Position numbers and translations under genes: made by a program
Assembly (NCBI RefSeq): GCF_029953285.1
Contig: NZ_JASAOI010000066.1
Coordinates: 1 to 43,663, forward strand
Origin: Yinghuangia seranimata
Lineage (GTDB): Bacteria > Actinomycetota > Actinomycetes > Streptomycetales > Streptomycetaceae
Direction of reading: 5' to 3'
Length of the DNA stretch: 43,663 nucleotides
Notes under the pieces: generated by a model
Databases searched by the model: none
What the model saw: the letters and a program-made list of their open reading frames with translations, nothing else
What the model was told of the DNA's origin: nothing
In this document: positions 10,532 to 35,991 of the stretch, one piece after another
Layout of the letters: each line of letters begins with the position of its first letter
How positions within the stretch are numbered: the first letter of the stretch is position 1

Positions 10532-12595
10532 GTGACGATTTCCCAGACCCCCGCGTCCGCCGTCGCCGGCGGCGGCCCGGCACCCGACCGAGCGTCACGC
10601 GGCCGGCGGTATCCGCTGCTGGCCGGGGCGCTCGCCGCCGCGTGGCTGGTTCCGTTCCTCGCGTACCTCGCCGGTGTCGCGGTCATCGTGCCCGTGCTCG
10701 TCCTGGCGGGTACCGCGTCCCTGCTGCGCAGCGGCCGCACGGTGCTCGACCGGCTGATGATCGCGCTGGCCCTGCTGTTCGGCGTGACGTGCGTCGGAGG
10801 CCTGCTCTTCTCGGTGTGGCCGTGGGGCATCCACCCGGTGGCGATCGGCGGTCTCGGGCTGACCGTCCTGGTGGCGATCTCCGGATTCACCGGGCGGCGC
10901 CCGGAGGTCCCGGGCCTCGGCTCGCTGTCCGACCTGTGGGTGGTGGGCGGTGCCGCGGGCTTCGCGGCGGCGATGGCGTGGCCCTTCCTGGTCCGCTCGT
11001 TCAGCGGGAAGTTCGCGCTGATCGTGTCCGGCGAGGACCTGGCCCGGCACTTCTTCCTCTACGACACGATCCGCACGCACGGCGGCTTCCCGTGGATGGA
11101 CAAGGCCGGGACCGCGACCGAGGTCAAGATCAACCTGGTCGCGTATCCGCAGGGCGCGCACATGAACATGGCCGTGCTGGACAACTTCGTGCGCTCCAGC
11201 ACGGCGGACGGTTCGACGACGACGGCGCTCCACCACTTCATGTGGTTCTACGTCGCCGCCGTGGTCTTCCTGTGCCTGGCGCTGCTGTGGGCGATCCGCT
11301 GGGTGGCCGGTCCGACCGTGCTGGTGTGGCGCTGGCTCCCGGTCGCCGTCGCGGTCGTGGGCCTGCTGTTCTGGGGCGACGGGACCGCGATGTTCCTGCG
11401 CGGCTTCATGAGCGAGTTCGTCGGACTCGGCCTGCTCGCGATGACGATGGCGGTGCTGGTCCGGCCGCTGTCCCGGCATCGTGAGCAACTGCTGGTGCTG
11501 GCCGCGCTGCTGACGGCCGTGTCGTTCACCTACTACCTGTTCCTGCCGGTGTGCGGCCTGATGGCGCTGGTCTGGATGATCACGCGCCGCGCGACGCTGC
11601 TGACCACGCCGGTGTGGACCGGCGTGCTCGCCGTCCTCACCGTCGTGCTGACCGCGGTCACGCCGGTGGTCAACTACCTGAACGGCTACGGCTCCGCGGA
11701 GGAGCTCAACTCCACCGGCGGCATCAGCCCCGTGAACCGGCACCTGCTGTTCCTCCTGCTGCTGGTCGCCGGACTCGGGTTCCTGTCGCGTTCCGCGTGG
11801 CGGAACCCGGTGCGGCGTAACGCCGGGGTGTGGCTCGCACTCTGCTCGGTCGGCGCGTTCGGCATGTTCGCGTACCAGACGTGGGCGCTGCACAAGACGA
11901 CCTACTACTACGAGAAGGTGCTGCACCAGCTGATCGTGGTGGCGGTCGTCGCCCTCGCGGCGTCGCCGTTCGTCACCCGTGACTGGTCGCTCTCCGCGAG
12001 CGCGCAGCGCCGCCGCCCGGTGATGAACATCTGGACGGCCGGGGCGCTGTCCGCCTCCCTGTTCGCGGCGCTGCTGCTGACCGCCGGCCCGGACCGGCCG
12101 GTGTTCCGCAAGCCGCCGGGCGAGCTGAGCTGGGGTGCGGCGTACCTCAAGGGCAAGATGCTGCACAAGGACCCGGCCGACGTCATCCTCGCGGGCATCA
12201 AGGCACGCAAGGCGGCGCACGCCGACAACCGCGCCAACATGATCCAGGTGAGCCGCAACCCCGAGGGCGCGAAGTGGCAGTCGAACTACTTCGGCAACCA
12301 GTGGACCGGCGCGCTGAGCCGCAACTACGGCGCCTCGTGGCCGTCGTGGCCGAGCATGGGCGCCGAGGCGGAGCCGAAGGACCTGCGTGACCTGATCATC
12401 GGGTACGGCAAACCGCTGCGTGTGCTGACCGACGACCCCGTCACGTTCGCCACCGTGCAGAAGCTCCGCCAGGAGCGCCCGGACCTGAACCTGGAGCTGT
12501 ACTTCAGCGCGGTCGGGACCTGCACGTACGACTTCAAGCCGGTCGCGGCCGGGGTGTTCACGCCGCCGCAGGCCGCGGAAGCGGCGCGCTGCTGA
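10532..12595 (+). CDS. Large multi-pass membrane protein, GT-C-like glycosyltransferase candidate
   Basis: The 687-residue protein has about 11-13 hydrophobic segments up to roughly residue 520, then a soluble C-terminal domain of about 160 residues. After the N-terminal helices comes a polar loop with SGEDLARHFFLYD at about residues 166-178. An acidic pair in an early external loop is where GT-C transferases carry their catalytic residues, so this may be a GT-C enzyme using a polyprenyl-phosphate sugar. I do not recognise the exact family, and an unrelated membrane protein is possible. Start is the GTG at 10532 with GAGGAG three bases upstream, which is close. A strong bidirectional hairpin follows. 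Confidence 0.7.
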   Translation: MTISQTPASAVAGGGPAPDRASRGRRYPLLAGALAAAWLVPFLAYLAGVAVIVPVLVLAGTASLLRSGRTVLDRLMIALALLFGVTCVGGLLFSVWPWGIHPVAIGGLGLTVLVAISGFTGRRPEVPGLGSLSDLWVVGGAAGFAAAMAWPFLVRSFSGKFALIVSGEDLARHFFLYDTIRTHGGFPWMDKAGTATEVKINLVAYPQGAHMNMAVLDNFVRSSTADGSTTTALHHFMWFYVAAVVFLCLALLWAIRWVAGPTVLVWRWLPVAVAVVGLLFWGDGTAMFLRGFMSEFVGLGLLAMTMAVLVRPLSRHREQLLVLAALLTAVSFTYYLFLPVCGLMALVWMITRRATLLTTPVWTGVLAVLTVVLTAVTPVVNYLNGYGSAEELNSTGGISPVNRHLLFLLLLVAGLGFLSRSAWRNPVRRNAGVWLALCSVGAFGMFAYQTWALHKTTYYYEKVLHQLIVVAVVALAASPFVTRDWSLSASAQRRRPVMNIWTAGALSASLFAALLLTAGPDRPVFRKPPGELSWGAAYLKGKMLHKDPADVILAGIKARKAAHADNRANMIQVSRNPEGAKWQSNYFGNQWTGALSRNYGASWPSWPSMGAEAEPKDLRDLIIGYGKPLRVLTDDPVTFATVQKLRQERPDLNLELYFSAVGTCTYDFKPVAAGVFTPPQAAEAARC

Positions 12596-12676: not shown

Positions 12677-13828
12677 TCAGCGGTGCACGAGCTGGAACAC
12701 GTGCTCCCAGCGGGCCAGCACGGCGTCCGGCGAGAACCGCTCGGCGTCCTTGCGGGCCCGGGCGCCGAGTGTGGCGCGCAGCTCCGGGTCGCCGAGCAGC
12801 CGGTCGAGCTGGTCGGCGAACTGCCGGGTGTTGCCGGTGACGGCGAGCAGGCCGTCGGTGCCGTCCCGGATGATCTCGCGGACCCCCGGGGCGCAGTCGA
12901 ACGCGACGCACGGCAGCCCGCACGCCATGGCCTCCAGGAGCGACAGCGGGAAGCCCTCGGCACGGGACGCCAGCGCGAACACCGAGGCCTTCTTGAGCGC
13001 GCCCTCGATGTCGGAGGTCTGCCCCGCAAAGTCGACGCTTCCGGCGATCCCGAGCGTCTCGGCCTGCGCGCGCAGCGCGGCCTCCTCGTCGCCCGTGCCG
13101 TGGAGGCGCAGCGTCCAGTCGGGGTGCTTGGGCGCGACGTCGGCCCACGCCTCCAGGAGAAGGTCGTAGCCCTTCTCGTAGGAGAGCCGGCCGAGGCTGA
13201 CGACGGTCTTCTCGGTGCCGTCGGCGGGTTCGTCGACGACGAGCGGCAGGGGGTTGGGCATGTAGCCGACGTTGGTCATGTGGTCGACCGCCCACGCGTC
13301 GGCGTCCTCGTGGGTCAGCAGCAGCAGCCGGTCGGCGCGCGAGTAGTAGCGCTTCACGCGGCCGTAGCGGCTGGAGGCCCGGGAGGCCTCGTACGACTCG
13401 TGGGACATCGCGACGACCGGAAGCCCGGCGGTGTCGGCGAGCGCGACCCACTCCATCGCCCACACCTGCGCGACGATGATCACCGCGTCGGACGGCGCCG
13501 CGCGGAACACCTCCGACAACTGGTCGGCGGCCGCGCGCATCCCCGTGTCGCGCCGGTGCTGGCGGATCCGCGCCTTGACGTTGGCGTGCTGCCACGGCCG
13601 CCGAGGCCGCCACCCGGGCGGCGGGTGCTCGGTGTACAGCGTGCGCGTGCGGTACGGAACGTCGCGGTAGCCGGCGCGCGTGGTGGCCGGCGTGATGCCG
13701 ATGAGCTCCACGCGGTGCCCGGACGCGACGAACAGCCGCGCGATGTGGTCGGCCCACCGGGTCAGTCCGCCGAGCTCGTCGACGCTGTTGCAGACGATGA
13801 AGATGTCCCGTGCGTGCGTCGTCTTCAC
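12677..13828 (-). CDS. Family 4 (GT-B) glycosyltransferase
   Basis: A 383-residue retaining GT-B enzyme. The N-terminal half has the glycine-rich LGGLTRW acceptor-side loop, and the C-terminal half has VSLGRLSYEKG and the donor-binding AEGFPLSLLEAM at about residues 289-300, the E-x7-E motif of GT4. The GTG at 13828 is correct because it overlaps the TGA of the upstream TagF-like gene by four bases and gives the normal start (VKTTHARDIFIVCNS). A longer apparent frame reaching to 15544 is only stop-free readthrough. Coupling to the TagF-like protein suggests both act on the same phosphate-containing glycan, with the GT4 decorating or extending it. Confidence 0.88.
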   Translation of the reverse strand: MKTTHARDIFIVCNSVDELGGLTRWADHIARLFVASGHRVELIGITPATTRAGYRDVPYRTRTLYTEHPPPGWRPRRPWQHANVKARIRQHRRDTGMRAAADQLSEVFRAAPSDAVIIVAQVWAMEWVALADTAGLPVVAMSHESYEASRASSRYGRVKRYYSRADRLLLLTHEDADAWAVDHMTNVGYMPNPLPLVVDEPADGTEKTVVSLGRLSYEKGYDLLLEAWADVAPKHPDWTLRLHGTGDEEAALRAQAETLGIAGSVDFAGQTSDIEGALKKASVFALASRAEGFPLSLLEAMACGLPCVAFDCAPGVREIIRDGTDGLLAVTGNTRQFADQLDRLLGDPELRATLGARARKDAERFSPDAVLARWEHVFQLVHR

Positions 13829-16728
13829 CGCGCGCCTCCCGTCGTGCCCTTGCCGCCGAAGAACCGCTCCACGACCGCCCTGGCCGCGGTGCCGGTGTCG
13901 TACTCGCCGAACCTCTTCACGAACGCGCCGCGCGCGTCGGCGTACTCGGAGCGGCTCGCGTCGAAGCCGCGCAGCGCCGCGAACAGCCCCTCCTCGTCCT
14001 CGACGAACGGGCCCGGCGCGTGCTCGCGCAGGTCGAAGTACGCGCCGCGCTCCTGCCGCGTGTAGGCGTCGAAGTCGTAGGCGTAGAAGAACATCGGCCG
14101 GTCGAGCAGCGCGTAGTCGAACATGACCGACGAATAGTCGGTGACCAGTCCGTCGGCGAGCAGCAGCAGCTGCGTGATGTCGTGGATGTTCGACACGTTG
14201 CGCACGAAGTCCGCGGCCCCCGGCGGGACGGTGAACTCGTTGAGGTAGTGCGTGCGCACCAGCAGCACCCACTCGGAGCCGAACTCGCGGCCGAACCGGT
14301 CGAGGTCGAACGGCATCTCGAAGTCCGCGACGTCGGCCCCGTCCTGACGGAACGTCGGGGCGTACAGCAGCACGCGGCGGCCGTCGGCCAGCCCGAGCCG
14401 GGTGCGCAGCGCGGCGAGCTGCTCGGCGAGCGCCGCGCCGCCGTCGACCAGCGCGTCGTTGCGCGGGTAGCCGACCGGCAGTACCTCGGCGCGCAGGTTG
14501 AACGCGCGCACCAGGGTGTCCACGTCGTGCCGCGACCGCACCACGAAGTAGTCGAACCGGTCGAGCATGCGGCGCGTGGCGGCGCGCTGCGCCTGCGTGC
14601 GCCGCTTCTCGGCGGGCTGGTCGTCGCCCATCTGCTTGAGCGCGGAGCCGTGCCACGTCTGGATGTACGTGGTCTCGGGGCGCTTGAGGACGTCGCGCGG
14701 GAAGCCCTGGTTGTCGATCCAGAACTCGGCCTGCGCGAGCGCGCGGTAGTACTCCCACGAGCCGCGCTTGACGAGCTTGGCGTCCTTCGGGAAGCCGTCG
14801 GGCTTGCCGCTGTACGACCAGATCGCCTCGAACTTCACGCCGGCGCGGCGCATTTCCTCGTAGATGTACTTCGGGCTGTCGCTGTACTGCTTGCCCATGT
14901 GGCTCTCGAAGACCACCGTGCCCTGGCGGACCGGCAGCTTCATGAAGACGTTCGCGTAGACCTTGGCCTTGCTCTTGGGCCCGGTGAGCTTGTGCGCGAG
15001 GCCACGCGCGGCGACCGCGCGGCGCACCGTGGCCTCGCCGCGCGGCGAGTGCACGAAGTCGTGCACGAACTCGTGCGTGCGGCGGGCGGCGGCGGACTCC
15101 TGGTCGAGCCAGATCTCCAGCTCGCCGCGCGGCCCGCCGACCGCCTGGAACCGGTCGGCGGAGATCGGGCCGGTGAGCGGCAGGACGGGCACGCGCACCC
15201 CGTCCAGCGACACGTCGCCCATGGTCAGTCCGGTGACGACCTTCTGGTCGCCGACCTTGAGCCGCAGCCGGACGTCCCACACCTTGTCGACGACGCCGAC
15301 GGGGTGGACGCGTCGGCCCAGCTCGACGCCGGCCTCCCACTCGACGGCCTCGCCGGTGTGCCGCAGCACGTCGACCGGCACCTCGACGCCGCGCCCGCGC
15401 AGCAGCCCGCGGCGCGGCCGGATCTCCAGCACCGCGGACAGCTTGGCGTCCCGGGGGATGCGCCCGAGCGTGTTGACGACGCTGCCGCCGAACACGATGC
15501 GCTCGCCCTCGACACCCAGCTTGGTCAGCCGGTTGCCCGGCCACAGCTTGGGCAACGTCCGGGTCTGGAAGCCCAGTTCGGTCACGTCGAGCAGTTCACG
15601 TCCGCGCTCGGTGTCGAGGTGTTCGGCGCACCAGTAGACGCGGTCGCCCTCGACGTGCAGCGGAACGGTCACCTTGTGGACCGGCACCGCCGGGACCCGG
15701 TCGACGTTCATGAGGCTGTCCGCGGCGGGCAGCAGGTTGTCCCAGTCGTGCCGCGCGGTCAGCAGCGCGCACACAGCGCGCATGCGCCCGGCGGCCTCGT
15801 ACGCCTCGGGCTCCAGCTGCTCGAGGTACGCCCCGACGGCGTCCGCGAACCGCTCCCGGTAGTCGGTGTCGCGGTGCGGCAGGTCGCGCAGGTGCAGCAC
15901 GAGGTCGTGCTTGAGGAACTTGATGTCCTTGCGGACCTTGAGCTCGTGGCTGCCGTACCGGGCGAAGACCGCGTCGATCCGCCGGTGGATCTCCATGCGG
16001 TCGAGCAGGTTGCCGATCTCGTGGCGCCGGTTGGTGACCGACGGGCGGTCGGTGCGGGTCGCGACGTTCCAGTAGTAGACGATGTTCGGGATGATCGCGA
16101 TGCGCTCGGCGGCCAGCCACGCCTCCGCCGCGAACAGCAGGTCCTCGTAGAAGACGCCGGTCGGGTAGCGCAGCTCCTTGCCGAGCAGGAAGTCGCGGCG
16201 GTAGCACTTGTTGGTCGACAGGGTGTCCCAGACCACCAGGTCGGGCTCCTCGAGGACGGAGTCGAGGACGCGGCTGGTCTCGTACAGCCACGGGTGCCAC
16301 TCGGTGATCTTGTTGCGCTTGTCGACGTGCACACGGACGACACGCGCCGACACCAGGTCGGCGCCGGTCTCCTCGGCGGCGTCCAGCATGCTCATGCAGG
16401 CGTGCCGGTCGAGCCGGTCGTCGCTGTCCAGGAACATCAGGTAGCGGCCGCGCGCGGCCTCGATGCCGGCGTTCCGCGGTCCGCCGCCGCTGCCGCTGTT
16501 CTCCGGCAGCTGGAGCGCGCGCACCCGGCCCGGGTGCGCCTCGGCGAGCCGGCGCGCCACGGCGTACGAGTCGTCCGGACTGTGGTCGTCGACGATCAGC
16601 ACCTCGACGCTGTCGAGGGTCTGGTCGAGGACCGAACGCACCGCGGTCGGGAGACGCTCCGCGTCGTTGTAGACGACGACCACCACCGTGACATCGGGTG
16701 TGGCCTCGCCGGCCGAAGGCCCGGACAC
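13825..16728 (-). CDS. GT2 - TagF-like glycerophosphotransferase fusion
   Basis: A two-enzyme protein of 967 residues. The N-terminal part (about 10-260) is a GT2 domain with VVVVYND, IVDDHSPDDS near 44-53 and FLDSDDR near 100-106. A middle region (about 300-590) has beta-rich stretches without a recognised motif. The C-terminal part (about 600-955) is a CDP-glycerol:poly(glycerophosphate) transferase domain, shown by FESHMGKQYSDSPKYIY, QTWHGSALKQMG near 686-697, VGYPRND and TDYSSVMFDYALL. Fusions of this kind polymerise sugar-phosphate or polyol-phosphate wall polymers in actinomycetes. GTG at 16728 has GGGAGG nine bases upstream. A CDP-polyol made by the adjacent divergent operon could be its donor (inference). 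Confidence 0.88.
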   Translation of the reverse strand: MSGPSAGEATPDVTVVVVVYNDAERLPTAVRSVLDQTLDSVEVLIVDDHSPDDSYAVARRLAEAHPGRVRALQLPENSGSGGGPRNAGIEAARGRYLMFLDSDDRLDRHACMSMLDAAEETGADLVSARVVRVHVDKRNKITEWHPWLYETSRVLDSVLEEPDLVVWDTLSTNKCYRRDFLLGKELRYPTGVFYEDLLFAAEAWLAAERIAIIPNIVYYWNVATRTDRPSVTNRRHEIGNLLDRMEIHRRIDAVFARYGSHELKVRKDIKFLKHDLVLHLRDLPHRDTDYRERFADAVGAYLEQLEPEAYEAAGRMRAVCALLTARHDWDNLLPAADSLMNVDRVPAVPVHKVTVPLHVEGDRVYWCAEHLDTERGRELLDVTELGFQTRTLPKLWPGNRLTKLGVEGERIVFGGSVVNTLGRIPRDAKLSAVLEIRPRRGLLRGRGVEVPVDVLRHTGEAVEWEAGVELGRRVHPVGVVDKVWDVRLRLKVGDQKVVTGLTMGDVSLDGVRVPVLPLTGPISADRFQAVGGPRGELEIWLDQESAAARRTHEFVHDFVHSPRGEATVRRAVAARGLAHKLTGPKSKAKVYANVFMKLPVRQGTVVFESHMGKQYSDSPKYIYEEMRRAGVKFEAIWSYSGKPDGFPKDAKLVKRGSWEYYRALAQAEFWIDNQGFPRDVLKRPETTYIQTWHGSALKQMGDDQPAEKRRTQAQRAATRRMLDRFDYFVVRSRHDVDTLVRAFNLRAEVLPVGYPRNDALVDGGAALAEQLAALRTRLGLADGRRVLLYAPTFRQDGADVADFEMPFDLDRFGREFGSEWVLLVRTHYLNEFTVPPGAADFVRNVSNIHDITQLLLLADGLVTDYSSVMFDYALLDRPMFFYAYDFDAYTRQERGAYFDLREHAPGPFVEDEEGLFAALRGFDASRSEYADARGAFVKRFGEYDTGTAARAVVERFFGGKGTTGGAR

Positions 16729-16899: not shown

Positions 16900-16974
16900 T
16901 GCGTGTCCTCTGCGGCACGTGACAGCAGGGGGATCCCCCGTCCCGCCCGCTCGTGGCGACATGCATAGGGAGTG

Positions 16975-18888
16975 ATGGACGCCCTGTCGACCGTCCTGTC
17001 GACCGCCTTGGTCGTCACGCCCCCGCCCACCGGTGCTCCACGTGAAGCGCCGCCGGCGGGTCCCGCCGCCGACCTCGCCGCACTGGGCTGCCCGACCGTC
17101 GCCGTGCCCGCCGCGGACCTGCCGCGCGCGCTCGCCGAGGCCCCCGGCGACCGGGTGGCCCTGGTCGACGCCCGGTTCGTCGGGCACCGCCACCTGCTGC
17201 GCATCGCGGTCAAGGACACCCGCTTCACCGCCGTGCGGCTGCCCGGCGTGCTGGTCGTCGAGGGCGACGCCCGCGAGGCCCTGGCCCGCGTCGCCGCCGG
17301 GGCGCCCGGCACCGTCGACGACCTGGCCGCCCGCCTCGCGGCGACCGGCACCCCGCTGCGCGAGCCCGACCCGGGCGTGCTGGTCGCCGAGGTGCCCGCG
17401 ACCGCCGCCGAGCGGGACGCCGCGCTGGCCCGCACGGCCGCCGTCGACGAGGAGGCCGTCCGGCTGACCTCGGCGGTCAAGGCCCGCGACGGCTTCTTCA
17501 CCACGTTCTTCGTCAGCACCTGGTCGCGGTACGTCGCGCGCTGGTGCGCCGGCCGCGGCCTGACGCCCAACCAGGTCACCGTCGCCTCCCTGCTGGTCGC
17601 CCTCGCGGGCGCCGCGGGCGCGGCGACCGGCACCCGCGCCGGCTACATCGGCGCCGCGCTGGCCCTGTACTTCTCGTTCGTCCTCGACTGCACCGACGGC
17701 CAGTTGGCGCGCTACACGGTCGACTACTCGCGGATCGGCTCGTGGCTCGACGCGACGTTCGACCGGGTGAAGGAGTACGCCGTCTACGCGGGCCTGGCCT
17801 TCGGGGCCGCCCGCGACGGCGACGACGTATGGCTGCTCGCGGTCGCCGCGATGGCCTTGCAGACCACCCGCCACATCGTCGACTTCGCGTTCAACGAGAC
17901 ACGCGGTGACGGCGGGGGCGGCGGGGGCGGCGAGGACGGCGAGGAGGAGGGCGCGGGCGCACGGCTGTCCGGGCGCCTCGACAGCGTCGGCTGGACGGTC
18001 TGGGCGCGCCGCATGATCATCCTGCCGATCGGCGAACGCTGGGCCCTGATCGCGGTCCTGACCGCGACCACCCGCCCCCGCGTCGTGTTCGTCGCGCTGC
18101 TGGTCGGCTGCGGCCTCGCCGCCTGCTACACGACGGCCGGCCGCGTGCTGCGCTCGCTGCCGCGCCGCCGCCCGCAGGACCCGGCGGTCGCCTCGGTGCT
18201 GTTCGACCTGTCCGACTCCGGGCCGCTCGCGTGGCTGACCTCCCGGCTGCGCCCGCCCGGCGGCGGCGCGCCCTGGCTGGTGCCGCTCGCCGCGGCGACC
18301 GCGGCGCTGTGCCTGCTCGCCGACTCGGGCGCCGTCATGCTGGTCGCCGCCGGCGCGTACGTGCTCACAGCGGGCGCCGTCGTCGCCCGTCCGCTGGTCG
18401 GCCGACTGGACTGGCTGGTGCCGCCCGTACTCCGTGCGGCCGAGTACACCACTGTGATCACGCTCACAGCCCGGGTCGCCCCGGAAGCGCTCTCCGCGGC
18501 ATTCGGGCTGGTGGCGGTGATCGCCTACCATCACTACGACACCGTCTATCGCCTGCGTGGCGGCCATCCGGCGCCACCGCGCGCGATCGTCTGGAGTATC
18601 GGCGGCCACGAGGGAAGGGTCCTCCTCATGGCCGCGCTCGCGACCGCCGGCTCCGGCGCGTCGCGCACCGGGATCGCGGTGTTCGCGATCGCGGCGGCCG
18701 TCCTGGTCGTCGGCGAGAGCGTCGCGTTCTGGGTACGGGGGGCCCGGCCGGACCTCGACGACGTCGTCCCGGCCGCGCAGCAGGACCAGAGCAACCATTC
18801 GGCCGGTCCGGACGTGGTAGCCGGTGTGCGTACGGGGCACCCGCTCGGGACCGACGGGCCGCCCACCCGAACAGGAGAACCACGATGA
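16975..18888 (+). CDS. DUF5941-type CDP-alcohol phosphatidyltransferase family protein
   Basis: A protein of about 637 residues. Residues 1-160 form a soluble domain that resembles a degenerate nucleotidyltransferase (inference). Residues 170-400 contain a CDP-alcohol phosphatidyltransferase domain with the complete signature D-x2-D-G-x2-A-R-x8-G-x3-D-x3-D at about 237-262. A further membrane region lies in the C-terminal third (DUF5941-like). The family transfers a phospho-alcohol group from a CDP-alcohol to a hydroxyl acceptor in the membrane. It opens the operon and overlaps the next gene by ATGA. The start is uncertain: GTG at 16972 and ATG at 16975 are both too close to AGGGAG (16967-16972). 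A Gly/Glu-rich stretch near residues 310-325 is probably a loop. Confidence 0.8.
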   Translation: MDALSTVLSTALVVTPPPTGAPREAPPAGPAADLAALGCPTVAVPAADLPRALAEAPGDRVALVDARFVGHRHLLRIAVKDTRFTAVRLPGVLVVEGDAREALARVAAGAPGTVDDLAARLAATGTPLREPDPGVLVAEVPATAAERDAALARTAAVDEEAVRLTSAVKARDGFFTTFFVSTWSRYVARWCAGRGLTPNQVTVASLLVALAGAAGAATGTRAGYIGAALALYFSFVLDCTDGQLARYTVDYSRIGSWLDATFDRVKEYAVYAGLAFGAARDGDDVWLLAVAAMALQTTRHIVDFAFNETRGDGGGGGGGEDGEEEGAGARLSGRLDSVGWTVWARRMIILPIGERWALIAVLTATTRPRVVFVALLVGCGLAACYTTAGRVLRSLPRRRPQDPAVASVLFDLSDSGPLAWLTSRLRPPGGGAPWLVPLAAATAALCLLADSGAVMLVAAGAYVLTAGAVVARPLVGRLDWLVPPVLRAAEYTTVITLTARVAPEALSAAFGLVAVIAYHHYDTVYRLRGGHPAPPRAIVWSIGGHEGRVLLMAALATAGSGASRTGIAVFAIAAAVLVVGESVAFWVRGARPDLDDVVPAAQQDQSNHSAGPDVVAGVRTGHPLGTDGPPTRTGEPR

Positions 18889-19622
18889 TCGGTCTGATCC
18901 TCGCCGCGGGAGCCGGTCGACGGCTCCGGCCGTGGACCGACACCCTCCCGAAGGCGCTCGTCCCGGTGCGCGACGAGCGGTCCGTCGTGGACTTCACCCT
19001 GGAGAACTACGCGAAGGTCGGGCTGACCGAGGCCGCGATAGTCGTCGGCTACTGCGGCGACGCGGTCCGCGAGCGCAAGGCCTCCCTCGAACGGGCGTAC
19101 GGCGTCAAGCTCCACCTCGTCGACAACGACAAGGCCGAGGAGTGGAACAACGCCTACTCCCTCTGGTGCGCACGCGACTACCTGGCCGAGGGCGTGCTGC
19201 TCGCCAACGGCGACACGCTCCACCCGGTCACCGTCCAGGAGGCGCTGCTCGCCGCGCGCGACGACGCCAAGGGCATCATCCTGGCGTTGGACGACGCCAA
19301 GCCGCTGGCCGAGGAGGAGATGAAGGTGCGGCTGTCCGCCGAGGGCGGCGTCGCACGCATCACCAAGCTGATGGAGCCCGCCGAAGCGGTCGGCGAGTAC
19401 ATCGGCGTCACGCTGATCGAGGGCCGTTCCGCGGCCGCGCTGGTCGACGCGCTGGAGACCACGTGGCGGCGCGACCCGAACCTGTACTACGAGGACGGCT
19501 ACCAGGAGATGGCCGACCGCGGCCTGCGGATCGACGTCCAGTCGATCGGCGGCGCGGTCTGGACCGAGATCGACACGACCGAGGACCTGATGAAGGCCCG
19601 GGAGATAGCATGCCGGTACTGA
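18885..19622 (+). CDS. Phosphocholine cytidylyltransferase-like NTP transferase
   Basis: A 245-residue GT-A-like nucleotidyltransferase. LAAGAGRRLRPWT is at residues 6-18, followed by the substrate-side LPKALVPV at 21-28, with LANGDTL near 105-111 supplying the metal Asp. This resembles the LicC/phosphocholine cytidylyltransferase-like group, which makes a CDP-alcohol from CTP and a phospho-alcohol. AGGAGA lies six bases before the ATG and the start overlaps the previous stop. Between two CDP-alcohol transferases and a glycerol-1-phosphate-dehydrogenase-like enzyme, it most simply activates a polyol phosphate such as glycerol-1-phosphate (inference). Choline phosphate or a sugar phosphate cannot be ruled out. 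Confidence 0.85.
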   Translation: MIGLILAAGAGRRLRPWTDTLPKALVPVRDERSVVDFTLENYAKVGLTEAAIVVGYCGDAVRERKASLERAYGVKLHLVDNDKAEEWNNAYSLWCARDYLAEGVLLANGDTLHPVTVQEALLAARDDAKGIILALDDAKPLAEEEMKVRLSAEGGVARITKLMEPAEAVGEYIGVTLIEGRSAAALVDALETTWRRDPNLYYEDGYQEMADRGLRIDVQSIGGAVWTEIDTTEDLMKAREIACRY

Positions 19623-20671
19623 CCCGCCTGGTCCCCGCGCCGCTGACGGTCGACATCCGTGCCGGTGCGTTGGACGACCTGACCACGCTGCTCGCCGACG
19701 CCCGGATCTCGACGTCCGGGCGGCTGGCGATGGTGGTCAGCGAGGGCTCCGGGTCACGCATGCGCGAGCGCTTCGCGCCGCAGCTGCCGGACGCCGACTG
19801 GTACTCCGTGACCGGCGGCAGCCTCTCGGCGGCGGTGGACCTGGCGGACCGCATGCGTGCGGGCAGCTACGACGCGGTGGTCGGCGTGGGCGGCGGGCGC
19901 GTGCTCGACGCGACGAAGTACGCGGCGGCCCGGGTCGGGCTGCCGGTCGTCGCGGTCGCCACCAACCTCGCGCACGACGGCATCGCGTCGCCGGTCGCCA
20001 GCCTCGACAACGACGCGGGCCGCGGCTCGTACGGCGTGCCGACCCCCATCGCGCTGGTCGTCGACCTCGACCTGATCCGCGAGGCGCCGCAGCGGTTCGT
20101 CCGCTCCGGCATCGGTGAGGCGCTGTCCAACCTGTGCTCGGTCGCGGACTGGGAGCTCTCGGCGCGCGAGACGGGCGAGGAAGTCGACGGCCTGGCGGCC
20201 GCGTTCGCCCGTACGGCGGCGGAAGCGCTGCTCTACCGGCCGGACACCGCGGACGACGACGCGTTCCTCGTGGCGCTCGCCGAGGGCCTGGTGCTGTCCG
20301 GCCTGGCGATGTCCGTGGCCGGCACCTCGCGCCCGTGCAGCGGGGCCTGCCACGAGATCTCGCACGCCATCGACCTGAAGTTCCCCGAGCGCGACGGTCT
20401 GCACGGCGAACAGGTCGGGCTCGGCGGGGCGTTCGCGACCTACCTGCGCGGCGACCGGGACCTGACGGACCGTCTGATAGCCTGCCTCGACCGCCACAAA
20501 CTGCCCGTACTGCCCGAGCAACTCGGGTTGAGCGCGGATGAGTTCGTGGACGTTCTTGAGTACGCTCCGAGCACCCGCCCCGGGCGGTACACCATCCTCG
20601 AACACCTCAATCTGGGGCGTGACGCCCTCAGGGACGCGGCGGCGGACTATGTCAACACCTACAGCGGCTGA
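19610..20671 (+). CDS. Glycerol-1-phosphate dehydrogenase-like (iron-containing alcohol dehydrogenase superfamily)
   Basis: The 353-residue protein has the NAD(P)-binding GVGGGRVLDATKYAA at about residues 92-106, then ATNLAHDGIASPVAS, then metal-site histidines in CHEISHAID (His248, His252) and LHGEQVG (His265). This layout is that of archaeal G1P dehydrogenase and bacterial AraM, which reduce dihydroxyacetone phosphate to sn-glycerol-1-phosphate. GIGEALSN at 168-175 carries Glu170 where, as I recall the archaeal enzymes, a metal-ligand Asp stands. The start at 19610 overlaps the cytidylyltransferase gene by 13 bases and the end overlaps the next gene by 23, so it is firmly part of the operon. 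It probably supplies the polyol phosphate that is then CDP-activated. Confidence 0.82.
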   Translation: MPVLTRLVPAPLTVDIRAGALDDLTTLLADARISTSGRLAMVVSEGSGSRMRERFAPQLPDADWYSVTGGSLSAAVDLADRMRAGSYDAVVGVGGGRVLDATKYAAARVGLPVVAVATNLAHDGIASPVASLDNDAGRGSYGVPTPIALVVDLDLIREAPQRFVRSGIGEALSNLCSVADWELSARETGEEVDGLAAAFARTAAEALLYRPDTADDDAFLVALAEGLVLSGLAMSVAGTSRPCSGACHEISHAIDLKFPERDGLHGEQVGLGGAFATYLRGDRDLTDRLIACLDRHKLPVLPEQLGLSADEFVDVLEYAPSTRPGRYTILEHLNLGRDALRDAAADYVNTYSG

Positions 20672-21425
20672 ACTGCGCGCGGTCTGCCACCCCGCGGGGT
20701 TGCTCGACCGCCGCAGCGGCGAACACTGGGCCGGGCGCCTCTACATGCGGCGGATCTCGCTGCAGCTGACCCGGCACCTGGTGGGCACGCGCATCACGCC
20801 CAACCAGCTGACCTACCTCATGATCGTCGCCGGTGTCGGCGCGGGCGCGGTCCTGGCGCTGCCGGGCCTGGCCGGCCCGCTGCTGGCCGCGATCCTCATC
20901 CAGGTCTACCTGCTGCTCGACTGCGTCGACGGCGAGGTGGCCCGCTGGCGCCGGCAGACCTCGGTCACCGGCGTCTACCTGGACCGGGTGGGCCACTACC
21001 TGTCGGAGGCCGCGCTGCTGGTCGGCGCCGGCCTGCACGCGTCGGACGTCGCGGGCGACGGCCGGCTCGGCGGCTGGGCGTTCCTCGGCGCGATCGCGGC
21101 GCTCGGCGCCATCCTCATCAAGTCCGAGACGGACCTCGTGGACGTCTCGCGCGCCCGCTCCGGGCTGCCGCCGGTACAGGACTCCGCGTCCGTGCCGCGC
21201 TCGTCCGGCGCCGCGACGGCGCGCAAGGTCGCCGCGTCGCTCAAGTTCCACCGGCTGGTCGGCGGCGTCGAGGCGTCGCTGCTGCTCCTCGCCGCCGGGC
21301 TGCTCGACGCGTGGCACGGCGACCTGGTGTTCAGCCGCGTCGCCGTCGCCGTCCTCGCGGCCGTCGCGGTCCTGCAGACCGTGCTGCACCTGGCGAGCAT
21401 CCTCCTCTCGAGCAGGCTCAAGTGA
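20649..21425 (+). CDS. CDP-alcohol phosphatidyltransferase family membrane protein, altered motif
   Basis: A 258-residue protein with the family's cluster of membrane helices. TPNQLTYLM near residues 48-56 is the usual lead-in. The signature at about 86-110 reads D-x2-D-G-x2-A-R-x8-G-x3-D-x3-H: the last Asp, proposed in structures of the family to be the catalytic base, is His here (LDRVGH). The upstream paralogue in the same operon keeps the Asp. The ATG at 20649 lies within the end of the previous gene and the TGA overlaps the GTG of the next. It would transfer a phospho-alcohol from the CDP-alcohol to a lipid, polyol or glycan acceptor; which one is not visible from sequence. Confidence 0.85.
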   Translation: MSTPTAAELRAVCHPAGLLDRRSGEHWAGRLYMRRISLQLTRHLVGTRITPNQLTYLMIVAGVGAGAVLALPGLAGPLLAAILIQVYLLLDCVDGEVARWRRQTSVTGVYLDRVGHYLSEAALLVGAGLHASDVAGDGRLGGWAFLGAIAALGAILIKSETDLVDVSRARSGLPPVQDSASVPRSSGAATARKVAASLKFHRLVGGVEASLLLLAAGLLDAWHGDLVFSRVAVAVLAAVAVLQTVLHLASILLSSRLK

Positions 21426-22348
21426 CGGCCCCGGCACCGGGCGTCCCCGCGTCGGACGGCACCGCCCCCAAGGCCCGCGGCCCGCGCCTGGGCGCGGTCG
21501 TGCTGACCATGGGCGACCGCCCCGAGCCGCTGGCCGCGCTGCTGGCCTCGGTCGCGGGACAGCACGGCGACCCGATCGACGTCGTGGTCGTCGCCAACGG
21601 CGGCCCCGTGCCGGACGTCGCGACGGCCGACGGCCGGGTGCGCACCATCGGGCTGCCCGAGAACGTCGGTATACCCGCGGGCCGCAACGTCGGCGCGGCG
21701 GCACTGGACGTCGACGTCGTGCTGTTCCTGGACGACGACGGCGACCTGCCCGACCCCGGCGTCGCCGAGCTGCTGCGCGCCGCGTTCACCGCCGACCCGC
21801 GGCTCGGCATCGTCAGCTTCCGCATCGTCGACCCGGAGACGCAGACCACGCAGCGCCGGCACGTGCCGCGGCTGCGGGCCGGCGACCCGACCCGCTCGGG
21901 CCCGGTGACCACGTTCCTCGGCGGCGCGTGCGCCATACGCGCCGACGTGATGGCGGAAGCCGGCGGCCTGCCCGACGACTTCTTCTACGCGCACGAGGAG
22001 ACCGACCTCGCGTGGCGCGCGCTCGACCACGGCTGGTCGCTCGACTACCGCGCCGACATCGTGCTCACCCACCCCGCCACCTCGCCCGCGCGGCACGCGG
22101 TCTACCACCGCATGAACGCACGCAACCGGGTGTGGCTCGCGCGCCGCAACCTGCCGTGGCCGCTGGTCCCCGTCTACCTCGGGTCGTGGGCGGTGCTCAC
22201 GGTGGCCCGCGGCTCGTCGCGCGCCGGCCTGCGCGCGTGGGCGGACGGCTTCCGGGAAGGGTGGAGGGAGCCGTGCGGACCGCGCCACCCGATGGCGTGG
22301 CGGACCGTATGGCGGATGACGAGGCTCGGGAGACCGCCGGTCGTGTGA
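21422..22348 (+). CDS. Family 2 glycosyltransferase, rhamnosyl-/galactofuranosyltransferase-like
   Basis: A 308-residue GT2 protein that starts at GTG 21422, overlapping the previous stop by four bases. Nucleotide-binding VVVVANGG is at about residues 54-61, GRNVGAAA at 87-94, the metal motif LDDDGD at 103-108, and HEETDLAWR near 194-202 supplies the catalytic base. The ANGG and LDDDG variants resemble rhamnosyl- and galactofuranosyl-transferases more than polyprenyl-phosphate synthases (impression, not alignment). It sits between the CDP-alcohol enzymes and the ABC exporter, so it probably adds a sugar to the exported polymer. Confidence 0.83.
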   Translation: MTAPAPGVPASDGTAPKARGPRLGAVVLTMGDRPEPLAALLASVAGQHGDPIDVVVVANGGPVPDVATADGRVRTIGLPENVGIPAGRNVGAAALDVDVVLFLDDDGDLPDPGVAELLRAAFTADPRLGIVSFRIVDPETQTTQRRHVPRLRAGDPTRSGPVTTFLGGACAIRADVMAEAGGLPDDFFYAHEETDLAWRALDHGWSLDYRADIVLTHPATSPARHAVYHRMNARNRVWLARRNLPWPLVPVYLGSWAVLTVARGSSRAGLRAWADGFREGWREPCGPRHPMAWRTVWRMTRLGRPPVV

Positions 22349-22413
22349 CCGGTGGCCGCCCCGGCGGCCCGTGGCTGGTGAACCAGGCAACCCACTGATG
22401 AGAAAGTGTCAAT

Positions 22414-23334
22414 GTGGCCAATAGCGCGCACGCCGACACCCTCCCGCCGGGAGGGCACGCGGCCGACGACGAAGGCGAGCTCGCGCTCAAGGACCTCGCT
22501 GCCCGGTACGGGCTGAGCGTCAGCGGCGCGCGCCCCGGGCTGGTGCCGTACACCCGCCAGCTGTGGCAGCGCCGCCACTTCATCGTGGCCTTCGCGAACG
22601 CGAAGACGCGCGCCGCCTATGCGACGGCGCAGCTGGGCCAGCTGTGGCAGATCCTCACCCCGCTGTTCAACGCGGCGATCTACTACCTGGTCTTCGGCCT
22701 GATGCTGAAGAGCGACAAGGGCGTCCACAACTACATCGCCTTCCTGGTCACCGGCATCTTCATCTTCACGTTCACGCAGAGCGCGGTGCTGGCCGGCACC
22801 CGGTCGATCAGCGACCAGCTGCCGCTGATCCGCGCGCTGCACTTCCCGCGCGCGTGCCTGCCGATCTCGTTCACCGTCGTCCAGCTCCAACAGCTGCTGA
22901 TCTCGATGCTCGTGCTGTGCGGCATCGTGCTGGGCACCGGCGAGCCGGTCACGCTCAAGTGGCTGCTCATCATCCCGGCGCTGGCGCTGCAGTTCGTGTT
23001 CAACACGGGGCTGAGCATGATCGTCGCGCGGATCGGCGCGCAGGTCACCGACATGAAGCAGCTCATGCCGTTCCTGCTGCGCACCTGGCTGTACGTCAGC
23101 GGCGTGTTCTACAGCATCTCCGTGTTCACCAGGAAGGCGCCGGAAGCGGTGCGGTGGATGCTGGAGGCCAACCCGGCGGCCGTCTACATCGAGCTGGCCC
23201 GGGACGCGCTCGTGGAGAGCCACCACAAGATTCCCATGCACACGTGGGCACTCGGCGTCGGCTGGGCGCTGGTGATCGGCATCGGCGGCTACGTGTGGTT
23301 CTGGCAGGCGGAGGAGAAGTACGGCCGTGGCTGA
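22414..23334 (+). CDS. ABC-2 type polysaccharide export permease (Wzm/TagG-like)
   Basis: A 306-residue membrane protein with a soluble N-terminus of about 50 residues and six hydrophobic segments. The region with QLGQLWQILTPLFNAAIYY at about residues 71-89 is characteristic of Wzm and TagG permeases, which export completed undecaprenyl-linked O-polysaccharide or teichoic acid. GTG at 22414 has AGAAAG about eight bases upstream. The last eight bases overlap the ATPase gene. The 65-base gap to the upstream GT2 is short enough for one operon. Confidence 0.9.
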   Translation: MANSAHADTLPPGGHAADDEGELALKDLAARYGLSVSGARPGLVPYTRQLWQRRHFIVAFANAKTRAAYATAQLGQLWQILTPLFNAAIYYLVFGLMLKSDKGVHNYIAFLVTGIFIFTFTQSAVLAGTRSISDQLPLIRALHFPRACLPISFTVVQLQQLLISMLVLCGIVLGTGEPVTLKWLLIIPALALQFVFNTGLSMIVARIGAQVTDMKQLMPFLLRTWLYVSGVFYSISVFTRKAPEAVRWMLEANPAAVYIELARDALVESHHKIPMHTWALGVGWALVIGIGGYVWFWQAEEKYGRG

Positions 23335-24097
23335 TCGCAACGTCGCCCCCACCGTGGTCGTCGACGACGTCCACCTCGTCTACCGCGTGCACGGCGCGTC
23401 GTCCGGCAAGGGCAGCGCCACGTCCGCGTTCTCCCGTCTGCTCACCCGCAAGAAGGCGGCCGGCGTCACCGAGGTCCACGCGGTGCGCGGCGTCAGCTTC
23501 GTCGCCCGCCGCGGCGAGGCGATCGGCCTGATCGGGCGCAACGGCTCGGGCAAGAGCACGCTGCTGCGCTGCATCGCGGGCCTGCTGCCGCCGACCCAGG
23601 GGAAGATCTACACGGACGGCCAGCCGTCGCTGCTCGGCGTCAACGCGGCGATGATGAACGACCTGACCGGCGAGCGGAACATCGTGCTCGGCTGCCTCGC
23701 GATGGGCATGACCAAGCAGGAGGTCGCGGCGCGCTACGGCGACATCGCGGCGTTCTCCGGCATGGACGACTACAACGGCAAGGACTTCACCAAGCTGCCG
23801 ATGCGGACGTACTCGTCCGGCATGGCGGCCCGGCTCCGGTTCTCCATCGCCGCCGCCAAGTCGCACGACGTGCTGATGATCGACGAGGCGCTGGCCACCG
23901 GCGACCGCGCGTTCCAGCTGCGCAGCGAGGCGCGCATCCGCGAACTGCGCGAAGAGGCGGGCACCGTCTTCCTCGTGAGCCACGGCATGAAGTCGATCCG
24001 CGACACGTGCGAGCGGACGATATGGCTCGACAAGGGGATCATCAAGATGGACGGGCCGACCGAAGAGGTCGTCGCGGCGTACGAGAAGAGCGCCTGA
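23327..24097 (+). CDS. ABC-type polysaccharide export ATPase (Wzt/TagH-like)
   Basis: A 256-residue ATP-binding subunit partnering the permease encoded just upstream. Walker A GRNGSGKST lies at residues 70-78, the ABC signature region YSSGMAARLRFS near 162-173 and Walker B VLMIDEALATGD near 183-194. The Y-S-S-G-M variant is typical of polysaccharide exporters. It ends soon after the nucleotide-binding domain, so it lacks the C-terminal carbohydrate-binding domain of some Wzt proteins. Chain-terminus recognition, if any, would have to come from another protein. The Ser/Lys-rich insert at residues 24-46 is longer than in many homologues. Confidence 0.92.
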   Translation: MADRNVAPTVVVDDVHLVYRVHGASSGKGSATSAFSRLLTRKKAAGVTEVHAVRGVSFVARRGEAIGLIGRNGSGKSTLLRCIAGLLPPTQGKIYTDGQPSLLGVNAAMMNDLTGERNIVLGCLAMGMTKQEVAARYGDIAAFSGMDDYNGKDFTKLPMRTYSSGMAARLRFSIAAAKSHDVLMIDEALATGDRAFQLRSEARIRELREEAGTVFLVSHGMKSIRDTCERTIWLDKGIIKMDGPTEEVVAAYEKSA

Positions 24098-24103
24098 CCA
24101 CAG

Positions 24104-24165
24104 GTTCGGGAGGGAACCGCACAGACCTCCCGAACGTGATCTTCAAGGACGTTCTTCTCGGGAGG
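24104..24165 (+). promoter_or_regulatory. Two mutually exclusive hairpins covering the PAP2 gene's Shine-Dalgarno
   Basis: Arm A (24104-24113) pairs perfectly over 10 bp with arm B (24126-24135). Eight bases of arm B (24126-24133) can instead pair with arm C (24158-24165), which contains the GGGAGG ribosome binding site of the gene at 24175. A:B would leave translation open and B:C would mask it. The A:B hairpin may alternatively be a simple partial terminator after the ATPase gene. Confidence 0.45.
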
Positions 24166-24174
24166 TAACCCCAC

Positions 24175-24834
24175 GTGACGCTGCACGCCGTGCCGGCCGC
24201 CGTGACCGACGCCGCCCCGGTGCCCCTGGCTTCGGGCGACAACGCCGACCTCGACGTCCTGCGCGGTGTGAACGGCCTCGCCGACCACACCACGTGGGCC
24301 AACGGGTTCATGGAGTTCCTGGGGGAGTACGGGCTCCTGGCGGCGCTCGGCGTGGTGCTCGGCATCGCGTGGTTCCGGGCCCGCCGGCGGCCGGACAACG
24401 ACGTGGCGGTCGCGGGCGTGCTGTGGGCGCCGCTCGCGGCGCTGATCGCCGAGCTCGCCAACATGCCGCTGCGTGACCTGGTCGACCGGCCCCGGCCGTT
24501 CGTGACGCACGCGGACATCACCGTGCTGGTCGAGGGCAAGGACGATCCGTCCTTCGCGTCCGACCACGCGCTGCTGACCATGGCGATCGCGGTCGCGCTG
24601 CTGCTCGTCGACCGGCGGCTGGGCGCGGTCGCCGCACTGATCGCGGTCCTGCAGGGCTTCTGCCGGCTGTACGTCGGCGTGCACTATCCGACGGACGTGC
24701 TGGGCGGGTTCGCGCTCGGGGCGCTGGTCGCGCTCGCGCTGTCGCCGCTCGCGCTGCGGGGGCTGATTCCGGTCGTGCGGAAGGCCGAAGGGACTGTGCT
24801 CCGGCCGCTGGTGACGGCCCGCGCGGCGGCCTGA
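24175..24834 (+). CDS. PAP2-family membrane phosphatase
   Basis: A 219-residue protein with several hydrophobic helices and the three PAP2 motifs: VDRPRPF near residues 102-108, FASDHA near 123-128 in place of the usual PSGH, and CRLYVGVHYPTDVLGG near 162-177 with the catalytic His and Asp. These enzymes dephosphorylate lipid phosphates such as undecaprenyl diphosphate on the outer membrane face. As the last gene of the export operon it could recycle the lipid carrier. GTG at 24175 follows GGGAGG by nine bases. The Ser-x-Asp-His variant of motif 2 is found in undecaprenyl-phosphate-type members, to my recollection. Confidence 0.87.
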   Translation: MTLHAVPAAVTDAAPVPLASGDNADLDVLRGVNGLADHTTWANGFMEFLGEYGLLAALGVVLGIAWFRARRRPDNDVAVAGVLWAPLAALIAELANMPLRDLVDRPRPFVTHADITVLVEGKDDPSFASDHALLTMAIAVALLLVDRRLGAVAALIAVLQGFCRLYVGVHYPTDVLGGFALGALVALALSPLALRGLIPVVRKAEGTVLRPLVTARAAA

Positions 24835-28805: not shown

Positions 28806-29426
28806 GTGCGATTGCGTCTGACCCCCAGGGAGACGAGCTTCTACGACATGTTCGCCACATCGGCGGACAACCTCGTCACCGGATCCAAGCTCCTGACCGA
28901 GCTGCTCGGCGCCGACGTCTCCGCACGACCGGAGATCGCCGAACGGATGCGGGCTGCCGAGCACGCCGGCGATGACGCGACCCACGCGATCATGCGCCAG
29001 CTCAACTCGTCGTTCATCACGCCGTTCGACCGCGAGGACATCTACACCCTGGCCTCGCAGCTCGACGACATCATGGATTACATGGACGAGGCCGTCGACC
29101 TCGTCGTGCTGTACCAGCTCGACGAGCTCCCGGCCCAGGTCGCGGACCAGATCGAGGTGCTGGTGCGGGCCGCGGAGCTGACCGCCGAGGTCATGCCGCG
29201 GCTGCGCACCATGAAAGACCTGACCGAGTACTGGATCGAGGTCAACCGGCTGGAGAACCAGGCCGACCAGATCCACCGCAAGCTGCTCGCGCACCTGTTC
29301 AGCGGCAAGTACGACGCGCTGACGGTGCTCAAGCTCAAGGGGATCGTCGACGCCCTCGAAGAGGCCGCCGACGGTTTCGAGCACGTCGCGAACACCATCG
29401 AGACCATCACGGTCAAGGAGTCCTGA
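28806..29426 (+). CDS. DUF47 (PhoU-like) Pit accessory protein
   Basis: A 206-residue, all-helical cytosolic protein of the DUF47 family, distant relatives of PhoU that are usually encoded beside Pit transporters and are thought to regulate their activity. Acidic metal-binding positions are visible in RMRAAEHAGDDATH and QLDDIMDYMDEAVD. GTG at 28806 has GGAG six bases upstream. It lies three bases ahead of the transporter gene, so the two should be co-translated. Confidence 0.9.
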   Translation: MRLRLTPRETSFYDMFATSADNLVTGSKLLTELLGADVSARPEIAERMRAAEHAGDDATHAIMRQLNSSFITPFDREDIYTLASQLDDIMDYMDEAVDLVVLYQLDELPAQVADQIEVLVRAAELTAEVMPRLRTMKDLTEYWIEVNRLENQADQIHRKLLAHLFSGKYDALTVLKLKGIVDALEEAADGFEHVANTIETITVKES

Positions 29427-29429
29427 CCG

Positions 29430-30431: not shown

Positions 30432-30490
30432 GCCGTCCGCCGGCCGCGACGTCGCACGGAGCGGGCGGGACACGGCCGGACGCAGGCCCG

Positions 30491-30555
30491 GCACGACGCG
30501 AGAGGGCGGTTCCCCGCGGAGCATCCGCGGGGAACCGCCCTCTCGCACGTCGTGC
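30491..30555. terminator. Strong bidirectional terminator between pit and pstB
   Basis: A 21-bp perfect stem (30499-30519 with 30525-30545) around a 5-base loop is extended by another 8 bp (30491-30498 with 30548-30555) after a 2-base bulge. It insulates the convergent pit and pst operons. Confidence 0.92.
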
Positions 30556-30590
30556 GCCAAAACCGGCCGCCGTCCTCGGTGCCGGCCGGA

Positions 30591-31367: not shown

Positions 31368-31444
31368 GCCTGCCTCGTCACGGGCACCGGTGCCCGGGGT
31401 CGGTGTCTTCTGTCGCGGTTCGGGGATTCGGGTGGTCGCCACGG

Positions 31445-33555: not shown

Positions 33556-33592
33556 CTCTTCTCCGTGGCTGTCGATCAGGGCTGGTGCCGGA

Positions 33593-34753: not shown

Positions 34754-34788
34754 GGCTGTTCCTTCCGATTGCTTCAAGAGCCTCGCGA

Positions 34789-34803
34789 TGACCACGGTGG
34801 TCA
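34789..34803 (-). repeat. Perfect palindrome in the pstS leader
   Basis: TGACCACGGTGGTCA is a 15-base palindrome around a single central base. If transcription starts near 34809 it lies early in the leader and could form a short hairpin or bind a second regulator. Confidence 0.45.
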
Positions 34804-34815
34804 CCGTCGATGCCG

Positions 34816-34870
34816 ACGTTAGGTCGCACGTGTGAAGCAAACGACGGGGGAAAGTGAACCGAGCGTGAAC
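34816..34870 (-). promoter_or_regulatory. PhoP-activated pstS promoter: four-unit PHO box plus -10
   Basis: On the minus strand four contiguous 11-base units run from 34870 to 34827: GTTCACGCTCG, GTTCACTTTCC, a degenerate CCCGTCGTTTG and CTTCACACGTG. TTCAC recurs at offsets 0, 11 and 33. Five bases later is TAACGT (34821-34816), a good -10, with no -35. That is the layout of PhoP-activated promoters in Streptomyces, where PhoP replaces -35 contacts. Confidence 0.82.
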
Positions 34871-34971
34871 ACAGGCAGGCCATCAGGGTTCACGCGACGG
34901 GCCCGGTTTCGCCGCCGCGCGGCTCGGGCGCGACGCGCTGATCAGGGCGTTTACCAGCGTTTTTGGGCGGT

Positions 34972-35986: not shown

Positions 35987-35991
35987 ACCGC

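Follow-up and report, generated by a model that had tools for sequence, protein, structure and literature searches.

Which activated polyol is made by a conserved gene cluster of the Streptomycetaceae, and could it be the 'archaeal' glycerol phosphate in CDP-bound form? The question is raised by eight genes of Yinghuangia seranimata (assembly GCF_029953285.1; genome 9.8 Mb), studied here within a window of 43,663 nucleotides that covers positions 1 to 43,663 of contig NZ_JASAOI010000066.1. An original prediction, made from the letters of this DNA, had listed two cytidine diphosphate (CDP)-alcohol phosphatidyltransferases, a cytidylyltransferase (CT), a glycerol-1-phosphate dehydrogenase (G1PDH)-like enzyme, a family 2 glycosyltransferase (GT2), the exporter proteins Wzm and Wzt and a PAP2 phosphatase, and had read them as an operon leading from dihydroxyacetone phosphate (DHAP) to an exported, polyol-containing product. 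All eight genes were found on the plus strand, in the order predicted, between 16972 and 24834. We conclude that they represent a real, conserved and phylogenetically wide CDP-polyol cluster. That the pathway runs from DHAP through sn-glycerol-1-phosphate (Gro1P) and CDP-1-glycerol to an exported surface glycoconjugate is the reading we favor, with a chance that we put just short of even, and CDP-1-glycerol is the leading but unproven candidate product.

Gene content and conservation of the cluster

The genes of the cluster in the host are as follows:

16972..18888 (ATG at 16975), plus strand: CDPT1, CDP-alcohol phosphatidyltransferase with an N-terminal extension and a C-terminal DUF5941 domain (PF01066, PF19365)
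18885..19622, plus strand: CT, LicC-like nucleotidyltransferase, predicted CDP-polyol synthase (PF00483/PF12804)
19610..20671, plus strand: G1PDH/AraM-like dehydrogenase (PF13685; PRK00843, 224 bits, residues 8-341)
20649..21425, plus strand: CDPT2, second CDP-alcohol phosphatidyltransferase, with the fourth motif Asp replaced by His in the host (PF01066)
21422..22348, plus strand: GT2 glycosyltransferase (PF00535; start revised to a GTG overlapping the CDPT2 stop)
22414..23334, plus strand: Wzm/TagG-like ABC permease (PF01061)
23327..24097, plus strand: Wzt/TagH-like ABC ATPase, 256 aa (PF00005)
24175..24834, plus strand: PAP2 phosphatase, undecaprenyl-diphosphatase-like, a lineage-specific neighbour (PF01569)

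Because overlaps of 4, 13, 23 and 4 nt link the first five genes, CDPT1 through GT2 likely form one transcription unit. Wzm and Wzt also overlap, by 8 nt, and gaps of 65 bp and 77 bp precede Wzm and PAP2, respectively. The same gene order recurs in other genomes and is thus beyond chance. PAP2, originally counted as an operon member, is present here but stands beside the core only in Yinghuangia/Embleya-type loci (L070 and L071 among 20 loci fetched from relatives, both Streptomycetales and class-level); its score against the SepP model, 59 bits, is below the model cut-off. The best NCBIfam models for the Wzt-like ATPase, TagH (161 bits) and galactan Wzt (154 bits), likewise score below their cut-offs.

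Conservation was assessed in 61 genomes, the host and 60 relatives, with presence defined as E<1e-100 for the dehydrogenase and E<1e-70 for CT. Strong matches to the two proteins coincide in the same 41 genomes, and the pair occurs in 35 of the 37 genomes of the host's family, being absent from G001 and G016; in G001, which belongs to the host's genus, neither protein has an orthologue and no TagF-type (PF04464) gene is found. At least 591 stretches encode a relative of the dehydrogenase, and the best 80 of them were compared (78 with Streptomycetaceae titles; the rarer genera presumably belong to this family). A gene was scored as present there when its best tblastn match exceeded 80 bits, and lower counts are minimum values since some of these loci run into contig ends. 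Among the best 80 loci, CT was found in 80, CDPT2 in 79, CDPT1 and Wzm in 77 each, GT2 in 76 and Wzt in 75, with a GalE-like gene (43), TagF and a family 4 glycosyltransferase (GT4; three each) and PAP2 (two) being less constant. The distance between the CT and dehydrogenase genes is at most 30 bp in all 80.

Outside the family, an alignment search of 396 genomes of the phylum (E<=1e-40) gave matches in 43, 12 within the family (host included) and 31 beyond it, and 20 of these 31 loci were fetched for neighbourhood comparison. CT lies within 350 bp of the dehydrogenase gene and on the same strand in 15 of the 20; no close CT was seen in L208 and L219, both on short contigs (4-6 kb), nor in L209, L220 and L213, the last with CT 3.4 kb away. 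All seven core genes are present in L201, L203 and L206 and five or six in L204, L205 and L207, while in L202 three genes, for CT, G1PDH and a CDP-OH_P protein, stand side by side. The CT-G1PDH pair is the most constant unit of the cluster, and this is the main reason for proposing that CT acts on the dehydrogenase product. A few fetched loci share a genome (e.g., L070 and L091), and counts of distinct sequences are given separately below.

A predicted route to CDP-1-glycerol

By similarity, the dehydrogenase groups with G1PDH/AraM-like proteins. Solved relatives named G1PDH score 154 (4rgq), 154 (4rfl), 143 (5fb3) and 89 bits (9h4x), with similarity over most of the chain; the solved 3ce9, named glycerol dehydrogenase, scores 142 bits and the next glycerol dehydrogenase, 1kq3, 56 bits. 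The 224 bits obtained with the NCBIfam G1PDH model do not reach its cut-off of 413 bits, which is too strict to decide the matter because only 3 of 14 control genomes pass it, although the control set has four archaea and Bacillus subtilis. For residue-level comparison, 61 of the 109 operon-clade rows were aligned with 15 references (11 distant rows and four solved chains). Of the 48 positions shared by 85% or more of the references, the operon clade keeps 37, 8 are mixed and 3 are replaced, one of these being Pro to Ala in 57 of the 61 sequences. The histidines are retained and the SRPxSG and DGxxSP motifs largely so, and the metal-site acid, which we take to bind the metal, is Asp in 52 and Glu in 9 sequences. 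In the excerpted literature, bacterial AraM is reported for some species, notably Bacillus (PMC13400652), and a G1PDH alignment includes a Streptomyces protein (PMC5059525).

The family profile of CT matches LicC (1jyk) best, followed by 6pd1 and 4jd0. Both CDP-alcohol enzymes originally listed are present; hhalign relates CDPT1 and CDPT2 to each other with a probability of 97.8%, but they are not equivalent. CDPT1 has the complete D..DG..AR(8)G...D...D motif, and the fourth Asp is kept in each of the 89 rows, out of 93, that show this motif; the other four are short open frames, three of 145-180 aa and one of 296 aa, which, as far as seen, are cut by contig ends. CDPT2 lacks the fourth Asp, and its best solved relative is AF2299. 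We take 6pd1 and 4jd0 to be a PntC-type and an IPCT-type enzyme, respectively, and, from the work on AF2299, the fourth Asp to be the catalytic base. CDPT2 may be a partner subunit, or its acceptor may require no base. In L202, L210 and L213 the fourth Asp is retained by the CDP-OH_P genes adjoining G1PDH. Profile comparison gave no support to two further ideas, that DUF5941, a family of unknown function fused to CDPT1 (positions 18190-18765 of the window), might be a second CDP-OH_P domain and that the N-terminus of CDPT1 might be a dead cytidylyltransferase.

We propose that the cluster provides the dedicated supply, transfer and export of a CDP-polyol for a cell-surface glycoconjugate. Judging from its family, the dehydrogenase would reduce DHAP to Gro1P, and CT, given its fixed pairing, would join Gro1P and CTP to CDP-1-glycerol. 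CDPT1 would then pass glycerol-1-phosphate to a membrane acceptor, GT2 would add sugar, with UDP-galactose plausibly coming from the GalE-like gene found near 43 of the best 80 loci, and the TagGH-like ABC pair would export the product. A neighbouring GT2-TagF protein, present in Yinghuangia, Embleya and some other Streptomycetales, would use the same CDP-polyol, presumably yielding a glycosyl-glycerol-phosphate polymer. A wider proposition is advanced tentatively and in our estimate is rather likelier to be wrong than right. In it, CDP-1-glycerol would be made by the streptomycetes at the level of the family, and Gro1P would be incorporated into a surface glycoconjugate on the cytoplasmic side; CDPT2, lacking the catalytic-type Asp, could move Gro1P to an acceptor phosphate, for instance polyprenyl phosphate, where no base is needed, and thereby prime the glycan on a glycerol-diphosphate lipid.

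Association with TagF-type genes and the search for other donor enzymes

The operon boundary drawn originally had overlooked two genes just upstream, which are divergent from the operon and lie 243 bp away:

13825..16728, minus strand: fusion of GT2 and a TagF-like (CDP-glycerol glycerophosphotransferase) domain (PF00535 and PF04464, 333 bits)
12677..13846, minus strand: GT4 glycosyltransferase (PF00534/PF13692), downstream of the GT2-TagF gene

The GT4 gene adjoins GT2-TagF in L070, L071, L085 and L086. At 333 bits, the PF04464 match marks the fusion as a putative TagF-type polymerase, a call at the domain level, and no other protein encoded by the host matches PF04464 at E<=0.001; a 749-aa host protein on contig C37 reaches 21.8 bits, just below the cut-off of 22.1. 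When TagF presence is defined as PF04464 at E<1e-50, which drops weak matches in G039, G042 and G058, it is found in 40 of the 41 operon genomes versus 1 of the 20 others, the latter being the incomplete genome G051 (44 of 61 genomes match at the looser E<=0.001). The association of the pair with TagF has a Fisher p of 1.3e-13 by genome and 6.7e-6 by genus, values that are descriptive only as the genomes share descent. In 9 of the 41 genomes a distance of 4.2-6.8 kb separates PF04464 from G1PDH, and since these span four genera and two families the linkage may be ancestral.

Other enzymes that could supply TagF with its donor were sought in the same genomes. TagD (TIGR01518) passes its cut-off in none of the 61, with weaker matches in 23 and no match in the host; the strongest, of 109 bits, belongs to G053, a genome without the operon. 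A second gene of the IspD family (TarI-like) above 100 bits is missing from 30 of the 40 genomes that have both operon and TagF, and 27 of the 40 have neither such a gene nor a TagD-like match of 60-67 bits. The CDP-polyol pathway of the original prediction is partly supported, on comparative grounds, by the conserved dehydrogenase-CT pairing, by the transferase, GT2 and exporter genes at most loci and by this co-occurrence with TagF.

Evidence against glycerol-1-phosphate, and alternative readings

Several observations weigh against Gro1P as the activated polyol. The Glu of the SGxEH motif (position 249, L070 frame) is present in all 15 references, including all 11 distant dehydrogenases, and is replaced by Cys or Asp in all 109 operon-clade rows (Cys in 106 and Asp in 3, or 101 and 3 of 104 distinct sequences); the Leu beside the metal-site acid has become Ala, Val or Ser in 61 of 61. 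The start from DHAP assumed originally has its footing in the G1PDH/AraM-like similarity, but loss of this Glu is the strongest sequence ground for doubting DHAP as the substrate. Because both residues are replaced, the operon-clade pocket may fit another substrate, and the predicted dehydrogenase may also still bind DHAP in a changed pocket. The reference set itself consists of three solved chains named G1PDH, 3ce9, named glycerol dehydrogenase, and 11 uncharacterised proteins. The fourth motif Asp of CDPT2 is Ala in 65, His in 40 and Asp in none of 105 rows (Ala in 63 and His in 39 of 102 distinct sequences).

Further points concern the association with TagF, whose members need not all use CDP-glycerol. 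The co-occurrence counts share descent and are not independent, and G013 has the pair without PF04464. Seven operon genomes have TagD-like matches of 60-67 bits, whose assignment to TagD or HldE is ambiguous; since they fit the HldE domain roughly as closely as TagD, the idea of a TagD under another name was set aside. Ten of the 41 operon genomes, host included, have a second gene of the IspD family above 100 bits. On host contig C37 (locus L090, 824-8997), an IspD-SDR fusion lies with a TarS-linker GT2, an LCP gene and the divergent 749-aa PF04464-like protein, an arrangement suggestive of a distinct locus for a ribitol-type wall polymer. This IspD-SDR protein, of CDP-ribitol type, is a possible donor source for the host TagF, and because the host has it the case made from TagF depends on the relatives. 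Other streptomycetes carry wall or lipoteichoic acids of the poly(glycerol phosphate) type. The Streptomyces wall polymers named in the excerpt of PMC11481543 are teichulosonic acid and polydiglycosylphosphate, neither of which contains glycerol, and the corresponding part of PMC7831098 gives S. coelicolor several Tag homologues, though teichulosonic acid is its major glycopolymer.

The strongest rival keeps the architecture and changes the polyol: a larger ketose phosphate (e.g., C4 or C5) would be reduced and CT would form, for instance, a CDP-pentitol. The two replacements beside the metal site of the dehydrogenase, confined to the operon clade, speak for this explanation, and TagF-type enzymes can use CDP-ribitol. 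It has to be reconciled, however, with the retention of 37 of the 48 reference-conserved positions, with best-scoring solved relatives that are named G1PDH, and with the distant dehydrogenases, which keep the Glu and yet show the same CT pairing in 8 of 11 loci. We regard it as unlikely, though still a serious contender.

A second alternative holds that the cluster makes a variant membrane glycolipid or phospholipid, CDPT1 placing glycerol phosphate on a lipid, with no wall polymer and with TagF as a secondary associate. TagF is near the core in three of the best 80 loci, G013 has the core without PF04464, and lipids are the classical substrates of CDP-OH_P enzymes. Downstream of the core, 12 of the 20 loci fetched from Streptomycetales and class-level relatives have a squalene/phytoene-synthase-type gene, 11 have another of this type, and an amine-oxidase-type gene occurs in 9, each family being named from a single representative; in these relatives' loci we take them to be hopanoid hpnCDE genes. 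Against a lipid product stand the TagGH-like Wzm/Wzt exporter and GT2, found in 75-77 of the best 80 loci, and the strong genome-level association with TagF-type genes, and we consider it improbable.

In a CDP-activated phosphonate pathway, CT would be of phosphonate type and the dehydrogenase, as an Fe-ADH-like enzyme, would reduce phosphonoacetaldehyde. The second-best match of the CT profile is 6pd1, to which we attribute a phosphonate role, and some relatives have matches of 250-300 bits to phosphoenolpyruvate (PEP) mutase, but the dehydrogenase groups with G1PDH and the best PEP-mutase match of the host has only 39.9 bits, which makes such a pathway unlikely in the host and, to our mind, very improbable in general. 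The PEP-mutase model cut-off is passed in 0 of 61 genomes and also in 0 of 14 controls, and alone decides nothing. Least probable of all, and rejected here, is the supply of an ether lipid of archaeal type on the model of AraM-PcrB in Bacillus, which would fit the presence of an AraM-like dehydrogenase but leaves the CT pairing unexplained and looks unavailable because none of the 61 genomes has PcrB/GGGPS above its cut-off (G054 has a single weak match), versus 7 of 14 controls, B. subtilis and the four archaea among them.

Neighbouring genes and a second arrangement

Beside the operon, the window carries at positions 1519-8755 genes for UDP-galactopyranose mutase, two GT2, GalE-like, NTP_transferase and DUF2304 proteins, which look like a galactofuranose-type glycan cluster. 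Positions 28806-39604 form a phosphate-metabolism neighbourhood, where PhoU_div and PHO4 transporter genes are joined by an ABC set that includes a PstS-like binding protein, and by a polyphosphate kinase gene adjoining a CHAD gene. Two long open frames, of 466 and 687 aa (3528-4928 and 10532-12595), have no Pfam match at E<=0.001. A second arrangement was seen in five loci of other Actinomycetota (L212, L214, L216, L217 and L218), where CT and G1PDH lie with DUF4012, PF01663 phosphodiesterase-family and Bac_transf sugar transferase genes; homologues of the three flanking genes of L217 were found in all five, and the G1PDH keeps the canonical Glu.

Implications and comparison with known systems

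If CDP-1-glycerol is indeed the product, nearly every Streptomycetaceae genome searched has the gene set for a CDP-activated 'archaeal' glycerol phosphate in bacteria, and TagF-type enzymes would obtain a donor step in genomes without a recognised TagD. The original prediction had placed the novelty in archaeal stereochemistry within a bacterial surface polymer. According to the available portions of two papers, Gro1P already occurs in bacterial lipoteichoic acid (LTA) by another route (PMC7086022, PMC8262930), LTA being Gro1P and wall teichoic acid (WTA) Gro3P (PMC7086022), and the new element would be the CDP-activated Gro1P donor. The 2021 mBio paper, in the part available, holds CDP-1-glycerol to be likely absent in bacteria and reports a Gro1P-preferring glycerol-phosphate cytidylyltransferase (GCT) activity in an Archaeoglobus fulgidus lysate, with the gene unidentified (PMC8262930); the CT family would be a candidate for this archaeal enzyme. 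In excerpts of PMC11666461 and PMC8587909, CDP-1-glycerol appears as a test substrate. No report of a bacterial CDP-1-glycerol pathway was found in the open-licence literature, and the accessible sections of PMC9385802 and PMC3123327 contain nothing on this cluster. The stereochemistry of surface polymers would be reduced to a question of two enzymes.

The cluster is evidently the same as the Streptomyces araM/tagGH syntenic region of PMC13118837, which in the available text comprises CDP-alcohol phosphatidyltransferase, GT2, nucleotidyltransferase, araM, tagG, tagH and crtB genes and is linked there only to teichoic acid biosynthesis, with no CDP-1-glycerol pathway proposed. It resembles the TagD-TagB-TagF system of Bacillus WTA, which uses CDP-3-glycerol, in its predicted CDP-glycerol donor, TagF-type polymerase and TagGH-like exporter; it differs in having no TagD above cut-off and two CDP-OH_P proteins, and its donor would come from G1PDH and a LicC-like CT, in the opposite configuration. 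With AraM-PcrB of B. subtilis, which leads to heptaprenylglyceryl phosphate, it shares a bacterial enzyme of the G1PDH family, but here PcrB is not found above cut-off, the partner is a cytidylyltransferase and the motif Glu is Cys or Asp. The logic of CT plus CDP-OH_P is that of glycerophosphoinositol and di-inositol phosphate synthesis (IPCT/DIPPS; A. fulgidus, Aquifex GCTs), although in the present cluster the two functions are on separate proteins and are followed by GT2 and an exporter. Finally, compared by domain content only, the fusion of a glycosyltransferase with a TagF domain is shared with the Actinobacillus capsule polymerases Cps3D and Cps7D, whose product, poly(glycosylglycerol phosphate), is of the type proposed here; unlike the host fusion, these are paired, according to the excerpt of PMC8262930, with CTP:glycerol-phosphate cytidylyltransferases that prefer Gro3P.

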